Source: Tilletiaria anomala UBC 951
Lineage: Eukaryota > Basidiomycota > Exobasidiomycetes > Georgefischeriales > Tilletiariaceae
Direction of reading: 5' to 3'
Assembly: GCF_000711695.1 (NCBI RefSeq)
Contig: NW_013546915.1
Span: 1-63,685, forward strand
Length of the DNA stretch: 63,685 nucleotides
Shown: positions 3,728-57,840 of the stretch, piece after piece
Layout of the letters: the number at the start of each line of letters is the position of its first letter
How positions within the stretch are numbered: the stretch's first letter is position 1
Notes under the pieces: generated by a model
Told to the model about the DNA's origin: nothing
Databases searched by the model: none
Seen by the model: only the letters and a program-made list of their open reading frames with translations
Made by a program: the position numbers and the translations under genes

Positions 3728-5790
3728 ATGCTGCATTTGACTCCTGATTTATCGACAAAGTTCTTGCCACGAACGACCATCAATTCGAGACTCAAATTCC
3801 AAAATCCAAGCCAGTCGAGAACGGTTCTTTTACCATGGAACTTTGCAGATCTACTCGCGGGGCGTAAGGCCATGTTGGGCGGCACATCGTCCATCAATAG
3901 CTCAGACGAAGTTGAGGCTTCTGACATTCCACAGCCCTCTTCGCATATCGCGCAAGAAGATGCTCTACTGGACGTGCTCGCCTTCAAAGAGACTGTACGA
4001 CTCTCGCTCTTCAACTCTGGCATTAGCGCAGGCTTTCCAGCTCACGAATGAGACCGTTGCGAATCCAGGTATTTTAGGCGTCGCCGGCAATCGCATCGGC
4101 ATGCCTAACTCTCGTGGAATTTCGAGTGGTCAGAAGCGCTGTCCCACCGTCGCAAATGGCTTTGTCGCGTGTCCTCAGCGGCTTTTCCTCGATGAGCCCA
4201 TCTCGGGGTTGAATTCAGCTTCAGGATTCGAGGCCATGCCGGCGATCAAGCGCGTCGCTCAGCAGAAAGGCATTATCGTTATTGTGACCATGTACTCACC
4301 CGCGTGGCATACATTTTCGCTCTTTGACTCGACACTCCTACTCGCAAGCGGGAAGATCATGTTCTACGGCAAGCCAAGCGAAGTGGCGCCGTATTTTAGT
4401 GACTTGGACCATCTCTGCCCATCTCACACCTATCCGGCGAATCACATGATGAGGATCATCAAGGCCGATATCGGCCAGTCCGGAGCGGACTGCGAGCACA
4501 TTGCTGCGGCCGACCGAGTCATCAAAAGGGGCACCCAGAATTCTTTTGCTCTGGCATGGCAGAGGCATGCAGAGTCACTTTAAGCTGACCGTTCCCGCTC
4601 ATAGTGAACACTCTCTTGATGGTTCTTTGACGAGGGTTATGCACTCTCCTAGCAAAGTCCTTGCGCAAGTCACGTTCCTGACCCAACGCAACTTGATCAA
4701 TTACAATCGGAATATCCTGACATACGGTGTACCGTTTGGGATGTGCTGTGATAGGGGTGCGATGCTCGCGTTGGTTGGATCAACTTGCCCCAGACAGGCA
4801 ACCGTATGGTGAGGGAGACAGAGTGCACGCTGAAATCCTGCCGCATCTCTTTCTCATCGCCTCACGGGTTCATGCAACAACGACCGCTTATATGTCTATT
4901 TTTGCGGTGGCTTTCCTGAGCTCCATGGTAGGTGCCCGGCTTCGGCGTGATGACCATGTCCGAGCTGGCTTTGGACGGATTTCTTCTCAGAGCGTTGCGG
5001 GCATTCTTGCCTTTCTAGAGGAGTGGTCTGTCTACGTGCGCAAGCGCAAGAATAATCTCTACAGTCCAGGTGCAGTCACCGTCGCGCAGATGATCCTCAC
5101 GCTTCACTTTCTCCTCATATGCACCTGCGTCTTTGCCGTCATTGCATACTGGAGCATCGGCCTCCACTCCGCCGCAGGTACTTTTTAAGTGGCTCGCCCA
5201 TGTCTACCTCGGCGTCGCCACCGCAGAGAGATGCAGTCTCTGCTGATCGTGGCGACAGTGCCGGTCTTTTGTGGCCAGACTGACCATCGCTGCGTTCCTC
5301 AACGGAGTCTGGATGGCGATGCAGGGCTACTCTATGCGAAAACTGCCCGCACTTCCAGAAAGTGGGCACAAAGGGTCAACTATGAGACTTCTGCTTTCCA
5401 GCTGCTGGTCAAGTCAGTGAGCCACCTTACGCCTCGTCTGTTGTCCACACGCCTGAGGTTGAGCTTGCATGTTTCCAATGCAGGGCTTTGCGAGGCGTGT
5501 CCTTCCGTGCTCCGGCAGGAGGAGAGGCGGTAACCTGTCAGAGTAGGCTTCTAAGCTTGCTCCTCCAAGCTTGGCAGCGTGCCGTGCCCGAAAGCGATTG
5601 CATCGAGTACCTCAGATACAGCGGTACTTCGACGATCATGTTCAGGTTCATCTTGTGGGTCGCCGTGGACGCAAAAATATCCCTTTGAGCCAATCGCGTG
5701 GCACCTCTCTTACTCTTGGCTTTGCTGCTTCTTGGTTGCGCATGGCCCTGATTTTGGTCTTTTATCAGATGTATTTCTATAATGTGCTGC
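3728..5790 (+). pseudogene. Decayed ABCG-type ABC transporter
   Basis: Fragments in several frames follow the order of a WHITE/ABCG half-transporter: a remnant around LLAGRKA, then ISSGQKRC (normally SGGxKRR), LFLDEPISGLNSASGFEAM (Walker B, D-loop), VIVTMYSPAWHTFSLFDS and MFYGKPSEVAPYFSDL. Membrane-domain pieces with hydrophobic helices continue to about 5790. The Walker A glycine-lysine loop is not recognisable, the D-loop aspartate is N, and the switch histidine (normally TIHQPS) is lost. The membrane half is broken by stops and frame changes that short introns do not readily explain. I read this as a host transporter gene that lost function; limits are approximate. An intact but very divergent, intron-rich gene is less likely because the ATP-binding residues themselves are gone. 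Confidence 0.75.
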
Positions 5791-6177: not shown

Positions 6178-8310
6178 CTATACAGTCTGCACTCTTACCT
6201 TTTCCTGCCCGACGCTGGTCAGTGGTATCGCCCGCAGAGACGCATGGCTGCCTGTGCTGGTCTGACTGAGCGTGTTTCGATGGCTGTAGCTGCCGATGCT
6301 GCCGGGGCACGAGCCTGCGCAAGCTGCTGGTAACCCCGCTGCGCCGGCACCGGCGCAAGCGCCTCCTTCCGCTGATGCATCTGCCTCCCCTCTTATGCCG
6401 GCGCGACTCGCGCTGGCGAAACCGGCGCGCTCGGCGAGTTCGCTGAACTTACTGGACACCACGCCAATGTCGATGCGCTCAAAGTACTGCGCGTCGGCAC
6501 GGCCGCGGAGGATCGTGGCAAGGAGCACGCGCAGCTTGTCCAGCAGCGGCTCGACGCGCGTGACAACTTTCTCGACGCCTGCGCTCGCGGCGGGTGGGAG
6601 GAGCGCGCGCGCGACGCTGCTGGCCCTGCTCGCGGCGGCGCGGCTGATGTCGAAGGCGAGCGCACCGTCGCCGATCCACCAGCCGCTGCCGACACACGCG
6701 CGCGCATCGTTGATGAGCCAGTCGTACCAGGCGTACGTCAGGGGCACGGTGGCAAGGTGCCAGAGAGCGTGCGCGTCGACAAAGCGCCACAGCGGCGGAA
6801 AGTCAAGCAGCTCAAGCAGCGTCGCAGCGACCGTGCCGAGCAGAAGCATCTGCAGCATGCGCCGCGACTCGGGCGTCGCGAGGCGGTGCGCCGCCAGAGA
6901 GGAGGACACAGGCGCGGGCGGTGAATGCGAGTGCGAGTGCGCATCCGAGCCCGGATGCGAGCTGCTGCTGGAGGTGGTGGTAGCAGTAACGTGGTGGTGG
7001 TGCATTGACATGGCACTGCTGGACGCGTTGGCAGCGGCGGTGGAGACGATAGCGCTGCGCGGCTTGCTGGCGCGCATGGCGGAACGCGCCGAGCTGAAGC
7101 GGTCGCCGCGCGGGTCGATGCCACTAAAGACGGCGGGGCGGACGCTGAAGACGGCCCAGAGGGTGACGTGGGCGAGGCCGACGAGCACATTGGCGGTCAT
7201 GTTGTAGCCGTAGTCGAAGTGGGCAAAGGAGAGGTAGAGCACGTGAAGTGTGAACGCGGCAGCCATAGCGCGGAGCAGTGTGACAAACGGACGGGTGCAC
7301 GGCGCGAGGCGGAAGAGGCGGCAGGCGGTGAAGAAAAGGGCGGAGAGGAGGACGCTGGCGGCGGAAAAGTAGTCCATCTTCTCGGTCAAGGGCTTGTCGC
7401 GCGTGTGGAAAACAGCGCTCCAGGTCCATGCATTAATGCTGATGAGCGCGTGAGAGATGTAGACGAGCTTGAGCGGAAAGACATCAGGGATCTGGCGACG
7501 GATCTTGAGGAGTGCCGCGGCGTGTACCCAAAGGTTGAGCAGACTGGCCAGGGCGGAGAGCGGCTCCTGGGCACCACAGAGGCGGACAAAGACCCACTTG
7601 CCGTAGAATTGGACCATCTGCTTCTGTACGGGCGGCAGCTTCGCCAGCTCGGCATCGAAGAGTTCCTTTTCACGCTTTCGCAGCACGGCTGACGGAACAG
7701 TCTGGGCGCCCGAGGCGAGGCGAACGCTATCGTGGACCTGCTGGCGGAGCAGCTGGACGTGGCGCGCGGCGTCGTTGGTGACCTTGTGCGTGCAGTGGTA
7801 CTTGGTGTCGTCGAGACAGTCCCAGCGCGTAACGCGCAGGATCCATGGCAGCCATGTCGAGTCCGGGTGTATCTCAGGCTCGGGGCGGCCGGTGAAGCCG
7901 TCGTCGACGCCGTCCGGGCCACAGACGTCGTTGAAGCGTGACTTGACGCACGAGATGTACTCGAGGGAGCGGTCCCCCTCGGACGCCAGCGCGCCGGGCA
8001 CGGCGGCGCAGCACACGAGCGCCGCCAGGCAGAAACATCCCGCGGAGAGCCAGGCGGCAGCCTTTCCCTTGCTGCTGCGATGCCCGCCGTTGCGGCGCGG
8101 CGGTGCCTTTGCGGATGGGTGCTGCAAATGGAAGGTCGAGCTTGAGCTGGGCGAGGATGGGCAAAGATGCACGGCCTGCTGGCCATCGCCATCGCCGTCT
8201 TCATCGTCGCTGCCTTGAAGTCGCCGCCGCCCGCGCCCCCACTGCTTCTGGTCGTAGGTGGGGAGCTGGGCGGGGACGTGCATCTGGTGCATGAGCTGCG
8301 GGAGCGTCAT
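6178..8310 (-). CDS. PER1: PER1/PGAP3-like GPI-anchor lipid remodelling protein
   Basis: Intronless frame of 710 residues from the ATG at 8310; an in-frame ATG at 8388 is an alternative. Per1-family marks are clear: a hydrophobic signal-like stretch ending ALASEGDRS, a luminal part with WDCLDDTKYHC, QFYGKWVFVR, then NAWTWSAVFHTRDKPLTEKMDY and several membrane helices with conserved histidines. Per1/PGAP3 belongs to the CREST hydrolase-like superfamily and removes the unsaturated sn-2 acyl chain from GPI anchors in the ER. The protein is about twice the usual length (around 350). The extra mass is an N-terminal acidic and serine-rich extension before the signal-like segment and a histidine/serine-rich insertion between late helices. 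If the extension is real, the first hydrophobic segment acts as a signal anchor. Shares a divergent promoter with the flavin monooxygenase. Confidence 0.88.
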   Translation of the reverse strand: MTLPQLMHQMHVPAQLPTYDQKQWGRGRRRLQGSDDEDGDGDGQQAVHLCPSSPSSSSTFHLQHPSAKAPPRRNGGHRSSKGKAAAWLSAGCFCLAALVCCAAVPGALASEGDRSLEYISCVKSRFNDVCGPDGVDDGFTGRPEPEIHPDSTWLPWILRVTRWDCLDDTKYHCTHKVTNDAARHVQLLRQQVHDSVRLASGAQTVPSAVLRKREKELFDAELAKLPPVQKQMVQFYGKWVFVRLCGAQEPLSALASLLNLWVHAAALLKIRRQIPDVFPLKLVYISHALISINAWTWSAVFHTRDKPLTEKMDYFSAASVLLSALFFTACRLFRLAPCTRPFVTLLRAMAAAFTLHVLYLSFAHFDYGYNMTANVLVGLAHVTLWAVFSVRPAVFSGIDPRGDRFSSARSAMRASKPRSAIVSTAAANASSSAMSMHHHHVTATTTSSSSSHPGSDAHSHSHSPPAPVSSSLAAHRLATPESRRMLQMLLLGTVAATLLELLDFPPLWRFVDAHALWHLATVPLTYAWYDWLINDARACVGSGWWIGDGALAFDISRAAASRASSVARALLPPAASAGVEKVVTRVEPLLDKLRVLLATILRGRADAQYFERIDIGVVSSKFSELAERAGFASASRAGIRGEADASAEGGACAGAGAAGLPAACAGSCPGSIGSYSHRNTLSQTSTGSHASLRAIPLTSVGQEKVRVQTV

Positions 8311-8881
8311 TGCGCTTTCGGCGGCGACTGGCCCTGGGTACAAGCTGTGAGCTTCTGTACGGCTGTCTGGCTGTATGTATGCCCGCATATGTGCTGGTGT
8401 GTGCGCGCTCCCTACGACGAAGCTCTCTGTTAGACGCTGAGGGTGCCGATGAAGCAGCTGCCGCAACTGAACTGTGGTGCGAACCGCTGCCACCTGGGCT
8501 GGGCTGAAGAAAAGAACTTGGGGTGCTCATCGCCACGTTACTATGGATTGCATAACACAGTTTACAGTCCAGAACAGCACTGCACGGCACCAGTGTCATG
8601 TCAAGCCAAACCCCTAACCCTAAAGCAATCTGCAGTTCACACACACTGACATATAATATGCATACAAATTAAATATACACTGACACGGGTCGAAAGAGGG
8701 GCATGGAAACCCAGCCTTGTGTGCTGACGTAAGCAACTTTAGAAGGTCTAACTCATCCACATGCTTCACCAACATCTTTGCCATGGAAGAGGCCAGGCAT
8801 GTTCGCGCAGCGAAGGCAACAAGGACGGGGCAGAAACAGCTCGTTCCTTGTCCCGCCCTCGCACCGTTGCCAGCCAGCAGC
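8311..8881. promoter_or_regulatory. Divergent promoter with telomere-like box
   Basis: Separates the PER1 homologue (minus) from the flavin monooxygenase (plus). It carries CCCTAACCCTAAA at 8612-8624, two units of the TTAGGG-type repeat read on the other strand. Similar boxes in fungi and plants can bind Myb/Tbf1/Rap1-type factors in promoters; a role here is inference. Confidence 0.45.
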
Positions 8882-16598: not shown

Positions 16599-16698
16599 AG
16601 CGTCTTAACTCAGTCGGTAGAGTGTTGGGCTCATACAATTCAAGTATTAACTTGAAAGTGGCACCCAAATGTCCTCGGATCAAGACCGAGAGACGCTA
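16599..16698 (+). tRNA. Initiator tRNA-Met (CAT) with intron, copy 2
   Basis: Second tandem copy. Its mature sequence is the same as copy 1 as read, with A1:U72, GGG/CCC anticodon-stem pairs, A54 T-loop and A73 at 16698. The 27-nt intron at 16636-16662 sits in the same place but differs almost completely in sequence from that of copy 1. A T5 terminator lies at about 16701-16705. The spacer to copy 1 is 70 nt. Identical exons with diverged introns point to duplication followed by selection or gene conversion on the mature tRNA only. Confidence 0.9.
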
Positions 16699-49716: not shown

Positions 49717-51628
49717 ATGGCTGTCATTGGAAAGATCTACGGCGGTGCCCCCGAGAGCCCCAAGGTTTGGAGGGTGAGTGACATCTGTGCGCAAATTTGG
49801 CGCTTACTGCGCATCGCGTCTCATGTCTGGTATCTGTATCTACCAGAGTTCTGAATCTGACCTTCCCTGAATACCTGGTACCGTACAGTCGCTCGCTGCC
49901 GCCAAGTACGCTGGTGTGGAGCTCGAATTCGTCAGGGCTTCTCTTCGCGATGGCGACTGCAGAAAGCCAGAGTACCTTGCCAAGTTCCCTATGGGCAAGA
50001 TCCCTGCCTTCGAGGGCGCTGACGGCTTCCTTCTGACTGAGAGTCAGGCCATTGCCCGCTATGGTAAGTTATGCAATCTCAACGTATAATTACGGATGTA
50101 ACGCTGTTAAAGGGAAAGGAAAGAAGAGGCAGCGATGATGGTATGTTTACATACGTTATCCCTGACTTAATCACTGTGTCGAAACAAATTGACGCAAAAT
50201 GCGGCTGAGCTGTCTCTTCATGATCTGGTATTGGTGCGATGGAGAAAGGGGGTCCAAAACTTGTGACTGCAGGCCTTAGTCTCGCAATGCGCCACATGCT
50301 AACATGTTCATTTTGGTACCATCGTACAGTTGCTTCGTACGCGAAGAACGCTAACCTACTCGGCGCCGACGAGAAGAGCAGCGCGCAAGTTCAGCAGTGG
50401 AGCTCCTGGGGCGACGAGGAGCTTTTCAACAAGGGCCTTACTATTCTCCTGCCCAGCTTTGGATTCGGGGCGTACAACAAGGAGGCGGAGGCTTCCGCAT
50501 GGGAGGCCATTCACCGTTCTCTCACATACCTCAACAACTACCTCAACAAGAACACCTTCCTTGTTGGCCACCGCGTTTCTCTCGCCGACCTCGTTGTTGC
50601 CGGAAACCTCAGAATGCTCTTCACCTCCCTTGCGGGTGAGGGCGTTCGCAACAAATACCCCAACGTAACACGCTACTTCAACACTGTGTTCGGCCAACCG
50701 ACCATCGTGGACATTGTATCCAAGGCCGAGCTCCTCAAGGAGAACTTCAAGTTCACTGCACCAAAGAAGGAGGCTGCCCCTGCTGCCGCTGCCGCTGCCG
50801 CCCCCGCTGCGGGCGCATCTGCCAAGAAGTCAAAGTCGAAGAAGAAGGACGATGACGATGACGATGAAGAACCCCTTGTTCCCGCCGAGCCAAAGGTCAA
50901 GAACCCGCTCGACGACCTCCCCAAATCACCTTTCATCCTTGACGAGTGGAAGCGCGTCTACTCAAACCAGGACACCCGCAAGGAGGCCCTCCCGTGGTTC
51001 TTCCAGAACTTCGACTACGACGGATACTCAGTCTGGCGGTTTGACTTCAAGTACAACGAGGTGAGTAAAGTTTTTGCTGTGAGAGAGTGTAACGTGATGA
51101 ATTTATATAAATCAAAGCATGTATTAGAGCCTTCGTTAGCCTCGCGCTGGCGTCATGGCATCAACGATTCGATTCTGATCTTTCCATCTTCAGGTCTTAT
51201 GAATATCTTTGGCTGACATTGGATTATTTCTGTCACAATAGGAGCTCACCCAGATCTTCATGTCTGCAAACCAAATTGGCGGCTTCTTCAACCGTCTTGT
51301 GAGTTCTGGTCCCCACTATTATAAGTCGTGCAGCAGAGATTGACCCCGTTGGTCCCTCGCTGGCATTCAACAGGAGGCGTCCCGCAAGTACGTCATGGGT
51401 ACTGCCGGTGTCTTCGGCAAGGCCAACGACGGTGCCATCGCCGGTGTCGTCATCTGCCGTGGCAAGGAGTACCAGCCCGTCCTTGGCGTCGCCCCGGACC
51501 TGGAGAGCTACTCCGTCTCGCCTCTTGACCTCAAGAAGGACGAGGACAAGAAGTTCTTTGAGGACATGCTCGCTTGGGAGGCCTCCGTTAACGGCAAGGA
51601 GTGGGCAGACGGCAAGATCCTCAAGTAA
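49717..51628 (+). CDS. Elongation factor 1B gamma subunit
   Basis: Exons 49717-49773, 49889-50063, 50330-51060, 51242-51298 and 51374-51628 give 424 residues. The N-terminus (IGKIYGGAPESPKVWR, EYLAKFPMGKIPAFEG, LTESQAIARYVASYA) is a glutathione-transferase-like fold, with its helical half up to about residue 200. A Lys/Ala and acidic linker (KKSKSKKKDDDDDDEE) leads into the conserved EF1G domain (SPFILDEWKRVYSNQDTRKE, FFQNFDYDGYSVWRFDFKYN, SRKYVMGTAGVFGKANDGAI). It anchors the eEF1B nucleotide-exchange complex that recharges eEF1A with GTP. Intron 2 (266 nt) and intron 3 (181 nt) are long for this locus, a common feature of highly expressed fungal genes. The third and fourth introns split FKYNEELTQ and FNRLEAS. 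Confidence 0.95.
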
Positions 51629-51729: not shown

Positions 51730-54700
51730 TTACTTGATCCCCAGCATGTCTTCGTACCACTTAAGCTCTTCTACCAATGCTCTCTTCTGGTTCTCTGCCT
51801 GGCGGAAGCCGTGCCCTTCCCCCTCAAAGAGGATGTATTTGACCTTGCACTTGTTCTTTTCCATCGTCTTGACGATCTCCTCGCTCTGATTAGGCGGAAC
51901 CACCTTGTCTAGATCGCCTTGCAGTACAAGCACCGGTGCGCGGATCCGGTCGGCCATGTACAGCGGTGATCGATCGTGGTAGATCTGCGGGACCTCCTCT
52001 GGCGAGCCTCCCAGCAGGCCCAGCAAATACCGGCTCTCGAACTTATGGCTGTCGTGCGCGAGTGCGGTCAATTCAGAGATGCCGTAGCGCGATGTTCCGG
52101 CCGAAAATACCTCTGGATGAAGACATAGAGCAGCGAGAACTGTGTAGCCCCCCGAACTGCTGCCGCTAATGACAATTTTCTTTGTATCAGCTCGCGGTAT
52201 GAATGATGTGCCGCTCTTCATCCCTGGCCCTTGCGAGGCAGAAGGGAACAGCGCCGGATAGACGGCTTGGTAGATGCGTTTGACCAGCGGCAGACGTGGT
52301 TGCAAATTCTTTGAAGACATTCAAACAAGCATGAGCCCCAAAATGCAAGTAGAGACGAGTTCAATAGTGCACTCACTGGGAAGAGAGGCACGAGTTTGCC
52401 TGTCTTGAGGATAGCCGCGACATAGGTATGTACGGACCAGCCCTTTAGCGCCTCGTTGACGACCAGATCCACCATGCGATCACGAGGTGTGAACGACAAG
52501 CTGACCGCGGTGACACGAAATGCAGCATCCGCACGATCTGCCCATGGCCATCGGAGCCCACGCCATGTTTCGCGCTGCAGGCCGAGGCCCGGAATGGCTT
52601 TGACGACCTCCTTTTGCACCTTACGTGCCTTGATCACCGCAATCACCGTTGCGAGTGAGAATGCTCCTTGAGCCATCCGCCGACCGACGGATGAGCAGGT
52701 GTCGCGGAAGAGTAGCATTGCAGCTGATGCGCCGAGCGCAATTGCGCTCAGTCCACTGATGATGCTGAAGATGCCCCAGTCACGCTTGTGATTCCGTAGG
52801 CTGACTTCGACGCTGCCGTCGGGCAATGCTTTCGTCTCGAAACACTCGAGCTGAGCCTTGGCCGTAGGTGCTTCGTAGATCGCTTCGCGATTTGGAACCT
52901 TCTGTGACGAAGTGGCTGCTCCTGTCGCTGCATCGAGTCCGCTTGACGCTGAGCCGAGGTACTTGGCGGCTGCAACGCAGTCCTCGACATCCACCACACC
53001 CCATTGGCCCGTGAGCCTGTTCATGTAATCCCGACCGTAACCAGTGCTGCCACCATAGTTAACATAGCAGACTGTGTGTGCGATAGATTAAAACCCTGAT
53101 TGTCAGTATGCGTGTCAAGCAAGCTCGAGCTGCACGGAGTACCGACCCATCCAGCCTCGAGATGTCCAGAAAGCGATGTCCAGATTGAGGCCCGCTTGAG
53201 CCGCGCCTGTCGGTCCTCCATGGACAGCGATGCGGCATGGCGGCGACGTTCCTGGCGGTGCTTCGAAATCAGGACTGTGAGGCGGGAAGATGACCGCATG
53301 AGCAGTTGCCACTTTGCCATTCTGAATTCAGAGGGAACCGTCAGTGAATGCATAGTTGATCGGCAGTGGCAAGTTCCTCACGGGCAAGGTAGTAGGAAAC
53401 TCAATTTCCTCGGATGTTGTGAACCATTCCTTGCCAACGACACCGTCTTGAACGATGTTGCTCGTGCGTCTGATGACATGGATGTCATGCTCCGCCAGTT
53501 TAAAGCATTCACTGCCCTTCTTGAGCGCACTGATCGCAGCTTTCAAGTCTACGGCCACAAGCGCACCGGGTTTATCATGCCAACAGGCGTTGACAACGAT
53601 GGAAGACGCAGATGTGGCACAAATACTGCTCAGTGTCGCGAACGCCGAATCAACCACTAGGGAGCTCTTGCTAGGTAGGTCGATGAGCCCCAGCACGCTG
53701 TGGCCTCCACGGGTAATGATGACAGCGATTGTCTCGGTCGAGAGAATTGTATACGTCGATGTCCCCAGAGACCATGCAGGCTGTTGCATGTCGCCTTTCT
53801 TCAAAGTCGAGCCATGCGCCACAAGCTCTGGTTCCGTAATGCTTAGTCGCGTTGATTTGCTAGCATATTGGATTCTGACCGAGTATATTTTCCCAAAGCC
53901 TGTACGGTCGGAGGTGAAGTAGAGGGTTTCTGGAGAGGCAGCAGGAACCGTTTCACCGAACAACGGCATCCATTTTGGTTGCTGCATGACTTCGCCGTCA
54001 TCACTTCCTTTCTGTGCGAGGCCTTTCGCGATCCCAGCGACCTCCCCGACAATATGTCTGGCCTGCACGTCGAAGCTTGCGACTCTGATCTCCGTGCTCC
54101 AAAATGGCATGCTGGGGTGATTCCATTGGACCCAAGCAATTTTGTCACCAGCTGGATTGAAGCTTGGGAACGCGTAAAAGTCGGCGCCAGAGACGAGCTG
54201 TTGCACTTTGGACGTGGACGTATCGAGAAGTACGAGGCTGTTGACGATTGTGGATGGCGTATCAACCGTGCGGTCTTCAAGGATACATAGGACGAGGTGT
54301 GGGTGCGTAGGGTGGGGTTGGAAACTTGCGAATCGGTGCGCTGGGTTGTCTATTGAACAAGTGTGTATGTGTCGGCAAATTGGTAACTGGAGCATGCCAT
54401 CACTTTGAAAGCACTGTTAAGCCAAACACTTACCCGGTGACACTTTTACTGGCTGTTGTTCGACATTTGTTATACAGTATACATCGCACTTGCTGGGACT
54501 GTAGTCCGTAAATACGATGCTGCCATCGCTACCCACGCCCATGGCACCTCCACCATACTCGTGCACCCCGCTTCGAGCATTGTACTTTCCACCGGTCACA
54601 TCATTCGCCGACGAGGATGGGGATGCGCCTGTTGATGTGGACGCGCGAATGAGGGCAGCACGTCCCTTTTCGCTGGGCCGATCTTCGGTGAATAGAATGT

Positions 54701-55022
54701 CAGCCGGAGCGTCAGTGGTTTGTGTGCAGCTGGCAAGCAGAGGATAAAAGGAGCAAGTCTCCGAAAACCGTATATTCTTCTGCACAAGTAGGTCTGGCGA
54801 AATTGGCGACTGCCAGCGACCGTACGGCACAACCTTCTTGGCTTGATGCCCCTTGGGCAAGGAAGTTGACATTGTCCGGCTTGTAAAGTATACTGTGCCG
54901 GGTCTGGAAAACGGTGTAACTGCAAGCGCAGTTCGCTGTGGCGTGGAAACAGGCTGTAGGTTGAGCACGGAGCGGACAACCCTCCCGCCAATTGGTTCGA
55001 AGTAGGAGAGCACTGCCCTCAT
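51730..55022 (-). CDS. S9 family serine peptidase with inserted PIG-H domain
   Basis: Exons 54434-55022, 53382-54349, 53147-53321, 52377-53071 and 51730-52308 join in phase to 1001 residues. The N-terminal part ([38 protein letters not shown]) is the beta-propeller-like region of prolyl-oligopeptidase relatives. [34 protein letters not shown] and [18 protein letters not shown] begin the hydrolase domain. [13 protein letters not shown] (nucleophile about Ser860), GDLDKVVPP and EGHGF complete the triad. Between KYL (about 616) and the nucleophile lie about 195 extra residues (about 640-834) matching PIG-H: a hydrophobic hairpin ([18 protein letters not shown]), [46 protein letters not shown] and [15 protein letters not shown] start at 54872 (MSTSLPKG) is an alternative. 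See findings. Confidence 0.85.
52234..52886 (-). other. PIG-H (Gpi15) domain inside the S9 peptidase frame
   Basis: This subregion codes the PIG-H-like segment, interrupted by the 68-nt intron 52309-52376 that falls inside the conserved FP|NLQPR motif. PIG-H is a subunit of the GPI-N-acetylglucosaminyltransferase that starts GPI-anchor synthesis on the cytosolic face of the ER, held by a hydrophobic hairpin. Both the hairpin and the C-terminal domain are present, so the unit looks complete (about 195 residues). There is no in-frame stop at either edge, and the only upstream ATG that could start a separate PIG-H in this exon (53024, MNRLTG) lies in peptidase sequence. Confidence 0.75.
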
Positions 55023-55511: not shown

Positions 55512-57840
55512 ATGGCGGCTGCGCCACCCCTAAACGACGCAGATGCGAGAGCGATCATGGAGAGACGGGTTAAGGTAATCTACGCCTCGCAGACGGGTAA
55601 TGCAGAGGATGTCGCGGATCGTATTGCACAATTGGCACGGCGAAAGCGCTTTGGTGCACAGGTACTAGATATCGCTGACTATGATGTGGTGCGTTGTAGA
55701 AGCCATTATGAGGCAGAACTCTCGCTTCCTGTCATGATTGTTGACGCCACACTATCTCACGTACAGACCGAGCTTGTCGAGGAGCCTCAACCGGTCATAT
55801 TCATCATCTCAACGACCGGACTAGGAGATTTCCCCAGCTCTGCGCGCCCATTCTGGCGCTTTCTCCTGCGCAAAGACCTCCCAGTAGATATTCTGTCCGA
55901 CCTCAACTTCACCGTTTTTGGCCTTGGTGACAGCAGCTATGCCAAATTCTGCTGGCCGGCTCGCTTGCTCAGGCGGCGGCTCGAAAGCTTGGGCGCCGTA
56001 GAATACGTCAAGGGCGAGGATGCTGATGACCAGCATCCAATGGGGTAAGTCGTAGATGCCCAGATTTGTCAAAGGATGATACTCGAACTAAGGCTGATCC
56101 TTTTGGGAAACCGACGCACAGAATTGAAGGTGCTCTCGTGCCTTTCCTCCAGACGCTGTTCACTCAACTCCAATCTGATTTCGTGTTGCCCACGTCGCTC
56201 AAGGAGATTCCAGAATATGAGCTTCTACCCCCGCAAATAACTGTGCGCCTATTGTCCCATAGCCTGGCGACTGGGCAGACAAGCAATGCTTCCGCCATTA
56301 ACGGATCAGCAACCAGCAATGGGAAGGAGAAGGTACGGCAGGGCCTCGCACGACTCACGCGCAACGAGCGCATGACTGCGCGAGACCATTGGCAAGATGT
56401 TCGGCTACTTGAGTTCGAGCACGTCGGATGGCGCAGTCTTTCGGATGATCTCAACTCAAACGATGATCCCGAGCGTGAGTGCAGATGGTTGCAAATGAAT
56501 TCACACGACAAAAGCGGAGGAGAGTGCTACTCAGATATGAAGTACGAAGCAGGCGACATATTTTGCGTGAAGGCGCATAATTCAGATGCACATGTGGACC
56601 GTTTCTTCGCTCGCATGGGGTGGTCGAATATGAAGGAGGAACTTGTACAGTTGGAATGTCTTTCGCAAAGTAAGTCTGAATGGTCAATTGTACGGGTGTG
56701 AACTCCTCTGATTGTCTCGCTTCCGAATAAACAGCCCGCAAGCTCCCGCCCGATATACCACGCCGACTGAAGCTCAGCGATCTTGTCAAGTCACATCTGG
56801 ACATATGCTCAGTCCCACGGCCCTCTTTCTTCCACACCATACGCCAATTCAGTCCCGCTGGCTCAATGGAACGAGAGAAGCTGGACGAGTACTGCACGCC
56901 TGGTGAGGGTGCGGACGACATGTTCGACTATGCTATGCGCGTCAGAAGAACCATCTTGGAAGTTCTGGAAGAGTTTCAATCAGTCAACTTTGGCCTGGAG
57001 CGGCTCTGTGAAGTCGTGCCATTCACGAGGGAACGGCAATTCAGCATCGCTTCCAGCGCCGAGTATCTCGACTTTCAGAAATCTGGAAAAGGGCAACAAG
57101 GGAAGGGTGCCTCGCTTGCGAATAAACGTAGCTCAGATAAAGTGCAACTCGCAGTGGCGATCGTCAAGTACAAGACGCGTCTCCGCGAACCGAGGAGAGG
57201 CGTTTGCACGGCTTGGCTGTCCGCCCTCGAAGTGGGGACTGCTGCAGCTGATCAGATCCCATATCGGATAGAGAAGGGTACTATGCGACTCCCTCAAGAC
57301 GATACCACACCCGTCCTGTACATCGGTCCTGGTACCGGCGTGGCGCCGATGAGGGCCTTCTTACAGCAGAGGCTTTTGAGCCGTGAGCGCGAGTGTTCAT
57401 GTACAGTGGTCGAAGCTAAAGAGCATGATGAGACGAACGGGAAGGCCATTGCAGGGCATGGCGCAAAGGAAGCTGCAAACCGCATCTTCCTCGGCTTCCG
57501 ACATTCGCAGAAGGATTTCTTGTTCGCAGAGGAATGGCAGCGCTGGTCGCGTTTGGGCTTTCTGGAGTGGCGCTTGGCCGCTTCACGCGAGAGCGCATCC
57601 GGCGAAAAATTCTACGTGCAAGACCTGATCAAGCAGGACAGCGCACTCCTGTGGAGGCATATTGGCGAACAAGGCGGATACGTGCTCATCTCGGGCTCGT
57701 CCGGCAAGATGCCAGAGGCGGTGCGCGAGGCGCTCCGGGAGGTTTGCAAACAAGAAGCCGACATGGACGACGAACAGGCCGCGAGGTTCCTGCAGGCCAT
57801 GGTAGCACAAAGACGCCTGCAAGAAGAATGCTGGAGCTGA
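55512..57840 (+). CDS. TAH18: TAH18/NDOR1 diflavin reductase
   Basis: Exons 55512-55688, 55767-56044, 56122-56669 and 56735-57840 give 702 residues. The FMN-binding flavodoxin module shows IYASQTGNAEDVADRI, IFIISTTGLGDFPSSARPFW and FGLGDSSYAKFCWP. The FAD module includes RPSFFHTIRQFSPAGSMERE and ERQFSIASSAEYLDF. The NADPH module has LYIGPGTGVAPMRAFLQQ, IFLGFRHSQKDFLFAEEW and YVLISGSSGKMPEAV. Tah18 passes electrons from NADPH to Dre2/anamorsin for cytosolic iron-sulfur cluster assembly. The first intron (78 nt, 55689-55766) is in frame and free of stops, so unspliced RNA would add 26 residues; family comparison (DYDV|TELVEEP) favours removal. Slightly longer than usual because of an insertion before LTRNERMTARDHW and others. 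Confidence 0.93.

Follow-up and report, generated by a model that had tools for sequence, protein, structure and literature searches.

In the 63,685-nt window (the whole stretch of DNA that was analyzed), a minus-strand gene for an S9 peptidase carries a PIG-H domain inside the peptidase catalytic domain. A Pfam search with the spliced protein matched Peptidase_S9 (PF00326) in two stretches above the curated cut-off (E = 7.5e-41), and PIG-H (PF10181) inside it with 39.9 bits (E = 3.5e-10, cut-off 25). The insert by itself still scored 37.2 bits against PF10181, above the same cut-off. Reading the DNA letters, the initial annotation had placed PIG-H within the S9 catalytic domain, and this profile search bore it out, with both families above cut-off. 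We think it probable that a complete PIG-H coding region was inserted in frame into the αB/β5 loop of the S9 fold. The product would be one chain, with its peptidase tethered to the ER and facing the cytosol and its PIG-H usable by the GPI-GnT complex.

Gene model and embedded PIG-H domain

The gene spans 55022-51730 on the minus strand. It has five exons with consistent phases, as the initial annotation had described, separated by four GT-AG introns, and the spliced reading frame (55022-51730) contains 1001 codons plus a stop. Splicing and translation placed the N-terminal part of the S9 peptidase in exon 1 (54434-55022). Exon 2 (53382-54349) encodes the part ahead of the catalytic domain, which is the propeller region according to the alignment with PDB 3azo, and exon 3 (53147-53321) encodes the beginning of the catalytic domain. 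Exon 4 (52377-53071) continues the catalytic domain up to AAKYL and then runs through the insert until FP. Exon 5 (51730-52308) contains the end of PIG-H, a second linker, the remaining catalytic domain, and the stop codon.

In gene order, the introns are 84, 60, 75, and 68 nt long. Inspection of splice sites gave GTAAGT..TAG for intron 1 (54350-54433), GTGAGG..CAG for intron 2 (53322-53381), GTCGGT..CAG for intron 3 (53072-53146), and GTGAGT..AAG for intron 4 (52309-52376), which lies within the insert. All four have G at donor position +5 and 12 or 13 pyrimidines in the last 20 nt before the acceptor. The CTRAY branch motif is present in two of the four. The 60-nt intron 2 is required because an in-frame TGA at 53330-53328 must be removed. 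Introns of 27 nt or 17 nt around this TGA were also considered and were dropped for the 60-nt intron, which has GTGAGG, CTGAC, and CAG.

There are two candidate start codons. Met1 (55022, T at -3) gives 1001 residues, and the second in-frame Met, Met51 (54872, A at -3), gives 951 residues. Residues 1-50 (55022-54872, minus strand) contain six Arg and one acidic residue. This stretch may serve as an organelle presequence, and the start context of the second Met is the better one. In NCBIfam, exon 4 had no match, and exon 5 matched 11 families, none of which reached its own cut-off.

The PF10181 match covers residues 737-809 (52377-52595, minus strand) and profile positions 5-67 of 67. Two hydrophobic segments precede it, the first at residues 681-699 (52707-52763; Kyte-Doolittle 2.06) and a weaker one at residues 706-724 (52632-52688; Kyte-Doolittle 1.18). 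PIG-H has two membrane segments ahead of its conserved domain. Thus, of the PIG-H with a membrane hairpin that had been proposed, residues 737-809 were confirmed by PF10181; the hairpin and the N-terminal part lie outside the profile and are suggested by hydropathy and by general knowledge of PIG-H. The embedded domain shares the above-threshold PF10181 score with PIG-H/Gpi15 of GPI-GnT and may share its membrane segments, as one of the two hydrophobic segments is clear and the other weak. PIG-H/Gpi15 is a separate, small, free-standing protein, whereas the PIG-H in the window sits inside another enzyme.

Searching PDB sequences with the insert gave no match up to E = 10. The PF10181 profile had zero matches in two prokaryotic and 14 control genomes, which is uninformative, as nothing scored anywhere. 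In viral contigs, 18 stretches fit the PIG-H pattern, and none of them was a relative.

The first linker (52902-52955, minus strand) starts directly after AAKYL. Fifteen of its 18 residues are Gly, Ser, Ala, or Thr, and a composition scan found it to be the 18-mer richest in these residues in the whole protein. Of 81923 open 18-codon windows taken with overlap from all six frames of the window, 70 attained this richness, and 1 of 20000 shuffles did so. The frame of the insert is stop-free; in the exon-4 portion, the two alternative frames contain 4 and 3 stops. After mononucleotide shuffling of the insert sequence (codons 617-846, 230 in all), the frame remained open in 1 of 2000 cases. The two linkers alone were open in about 18% of shuffles, so openness argues mostly for PIG-H itself. 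Linker composition is the stronger argument for coding, and it supports reading the first linker as a coding segment typical of a domain junction. GC3 was 0.61 for the whole insert and 0.57 to 0.67 for its flanks; over 25 codons of the first linker it was 0.44, below both. A search for direct repeats (10 nt or more) found two families; all four copies lie within the insert, and none flanks it.

Insertion site in the S9 catalytic domain

The S9 part without the insert, taken from Met51, aligned nearly end to end with PDB 3azo (query 14-723 of 724, chain 4-650 of 662), which places it close to the puromycin hydrolases of the S9 family (PDB 3azo and 3azp). Among the 94 PDB sequences matched by the insert-free S9 part, 7c72 had the top E-value. 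Pfam gave no propeller family for the spliced protein up to E = 1. Prokaryotic genomes were searched with the insert-free query; at least 589 S9 relatives were found, and the best 80 were retained. Together with the window protein, these formed an alignment of 81 rows. In this alignment, the nucleophile Ser860 (52156-52158, minus strand) is Ser in 81 of 81 rows, Asp943 (51907-51909) is Asp in 81 of 81 rows, and His975 (51811-51813) is His in 80 of 81 rows, with one gap. The Ser-Asp-His catalytic triad is therefore intact in the window protein.

The distance from VVDVED to GxSxGG was 22 residues in 79 of the best 80 of at least 589 relatives, and 27 residues in the remaining one. It is 249 residues in the window protein, giving a net insertion of 227. 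The uninterrupted hydrolase core was not found in the window protein; 79 of these 80 relatives have no extra residues at this site and one has five, and fungal relatives sharing the insert would escape such a comparison because all relatives were prokaryotic and were picked by an insert-free query. The net insert, 227 codons plus intron 4, occupies 52207-52955 on the minus strand, with its right edge placed from the 22-residue spacing of the relatives. KYL on the left and 10 residues on the right would give back exactly 22 residues.

These measurements refined the initial annotation at several points. It had ended the first S9 stretch at AAKYL, which held, and had resumed S9 at KKIVISG, which moved slightly upstream. 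Its length of about 195 residues was revised to a net 227, comprising PIG-H plus two linkers. Its open frames on either side were confirmed, as the reading frame is continuous through both junctions.

We used a structure model of a bacterial relative (30 of the best 80 loci, pLDDT 88) to locate the site in the fold. The model has a helix at 90-105, a loop, and a strand at 114-119. The insert begins after the residue equivalent to Leu103, where the helix that precedes the nucleophile strand ends. This residue is the Leu of KYL, which is conserved almost throughout (90% or more) in an alignment of 30 relatives. The catalytic domain modelled for the bacterial relative superposed on 7c72 with a TM score of 0.96, and 3azp and 3azo were the other closest solved structures; 7c72 differs from the window protein in having 22 residues at the loop and no PIG-H. 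A structure model of exon 4 alone had a pLDDT of 36.9 and was set aside as useless.

The fold suggests that the insertion site is the αB/β5 connection, on the side away from the active site. An analogy is offered by the α/β-hydrolase C2orf69 (PF10561), for which a passage of an α/β-hydrolase survey (PMC11878206) describes an extra segment in the same connection, opposite the catalytic pocket. The insertion had been thought to sit next to the active-site serine; judging from the bacterial model and the C2orf69 analogy, it would be near the serine in sequence only, in the loop at the end of helix αB. C2orf69 differs in that its segment is described as unstructured rather than as a known domain (PMC11878206). 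The same survey reports that another α/β hydrolase, DUF6792 (PF20591), has a whole domain of 229 residues within the hydrolase core, as in the window protein, but its insertion precedes the catalytic His and is a helical bundle without predicted transmembrane character (PMC11878206).

One chain or separate products

Besides a domain insertion, the initial annotation had offered a nested gene exposed by alternative splicing. In such an arrangement, PIG-H would occupy a same-strand intron or an alternative exon of the S9 host gene; skipping would yield one protein, and internal initiation with early termination the other. PIG-H at this locus does not read as free-standing, with its own in-frame start and stop both absent. 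The last in-frame Met before the hydrophobic segments is Met594, which still belongs to S9; the next one, Met696, falls inside the first of those segments. The frame also stays free of stops from PIG-H until S9 resumes. As many as 117 combinations of an ATG with an extra intron might supply a PIG-H start; they carry little weight because so many arise. An end could come from retention of intron 4, in which case a 289-aa frame would continue past the end of the PF10181 match to a stop at 52218. We also scanned for GT-AG pairs with the donor within 53050-52901 and the acceptor within 52270-52171. Five in-frame pairs skip PIG-H, and one of them, the 749-nt pair 52962-52214, would leave the spacing at exactly 22 residues. 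However, the five pairs use four donors (GTACCT, GTTGCA, GTCAAG, and GTCACA), none of which has G at +5. The acceptor of the 22-residue pair (donor GTACCT) is GATGAAGAG, preceded by 5 pyrimidines in 20 nt versus 12 or 13 in the four accepted introns. The same skip would also lose KYL of the helix, with its nearly invariant Leu. Its missing CTRAY motif says little, because half of the accepted introns lack one as well. Because PIG-H lacks an in-frame start and stop, its first linker looks coding and junction-like, and the skip sites are poor, a domain insertion accounts for it better, and we regard the nested arrangement as unlikely.

The embedded PIG-H could instead be a secondary copy, from a recent or passenger insertion, that has no role in GPI synthesis, with the working gene elsewhere in the genome. 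Its PIG-H score of 39.9 bits is moderate, and the tblastn search that found no second PIG-H copy covered the 63,685 nt of the window. On the other hand, the 227 codons are stop-free, intron 4 resembles the other three introns in donor and pyrimidine content, the PF10181 profile is covered except for four positions, and the flanks lack direct repeats, at 10 nt and above, of the kind a recent insertion might leave. These features make a secondary copy quite improbable. That an assembly or sequence artefact put PIG-H DNA into the S9 gene is barely credible: the frame is continuous over both junctions, the composition is similar, and a linker lies exactly at the left junction, all of which would have to coincide by accident.

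Possible function and surroundings

In the favored reading, PIG-H entered the αB/β5 loop of a puromycin-hydrolase-like S9 peptidase in frame, and the gene would be translated as one chain of about 1000 residues (951 from the second Met). The hydrolase would fold around the insert by means of flexible linkers, which should be feasible because the loop is predicted to face away from both the active site and the propeller. Both ends of the PIG-H membrane hairpin would lie in the cytosol, which would hold the peptidase domain at the ER membrane on its cytosolic face. A hairpin with cytosolic ends would suit insertion into a cytosolic enzyme. The likely outcome is a peptidase that carries PIG-H and stays at the ER surface, and this PIG-H may still be able to join the GPI-GnT complex. 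The functions of both halves are predictions from sequence.

PMC7125958 lists PIG-H among the seven subunits of GPI-GnT and describes the complex as acting at the cytosolic ER face, with PIGC, PIGH, PIGP, and PIGY essential for it. In a published AlphaFold3 model, PIGH lies partly in the membrane and partly in the cytoplasm and contacts PIGQ and PIGA (PMC12182360). Two functions that simply share one chain seem more likely to us than a peptidase that regulates GPI synthesis. More tentatively, the embedded domain may be the only PIG-H of the organism. The GPI-GnT complex would then necessarily contain an active S9 peptidase facing the cytosol at the ER, and peptide turnover would be linked physically, and perhaps in function, to the initial step of GPI synthesis; we hold this to be possible and somewhat doubtful. 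Human PIGY shares its transcript with another protein.

Hydrolase cores are known to carry inserted domains, but it would be unusual for a peptidase to be fused around a membrane-bound subunit that belongs to an essential glycolipid pathway. We met no description of an S9/PIG-H fusion among the papers listed by the literature searches, which were judged on titles and abstract openings, with most subscription journals outside their scope. If this PIG-H is the sole copy, the gene offers a natural experiment on the requirements of PIG-H, as both of its ends must bear being tied to a loop of a foreign fold. The back loop of S9 peptidases would be marked as accepting whole domains, which would be of use in protein engineering. 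The fusion also raises the question of whether peptidase activity influences GPI synthesis.

Other genes were observed in the window. A Per1-family gene (PF04080, E = 1.5e-84) lies at 6178-8526 on the minus strand, with some 44 kb separating it from the embedded PIG-H. The Per1 family acts in GPI lipid remodelling; its presence in the same window is possibly a coincidence. An ABC-transporter-like frame at 3741-4580 (plus strand) matched PF19055 weakly, below the cut-off, and is perhaps a fragment. A scan of the window for bacterial promoters and terminators stayed near the shuffle level; it was not designed for such a genome. Rfam gave a tRNA match of 100 bases at 16599-16698 (plus strand, 51.6 bits), and ARAGORN with bacterial settings found 0 tRNAs and missed it. 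An intron in this tRNA is suggested because the match spans 100 bases. The Pan3 family was also among the families found in the window. Together, the suggested tRNA intron, the short introns of the S9/PIG-H gene, and families such as Per1, Pan3, and eEF1-gamma indicate a eukaryotic nuclear genome, most likely fungal. The neighbors of the S9/PIG-H gene, both on the plus strand, are a gene for eEF1-gamma (PF00647, GST_C) at 50224-51213 and a flavin reductase gene (PF00667 and PF00175) at 56731-57837, which we take to be Tah18-like.
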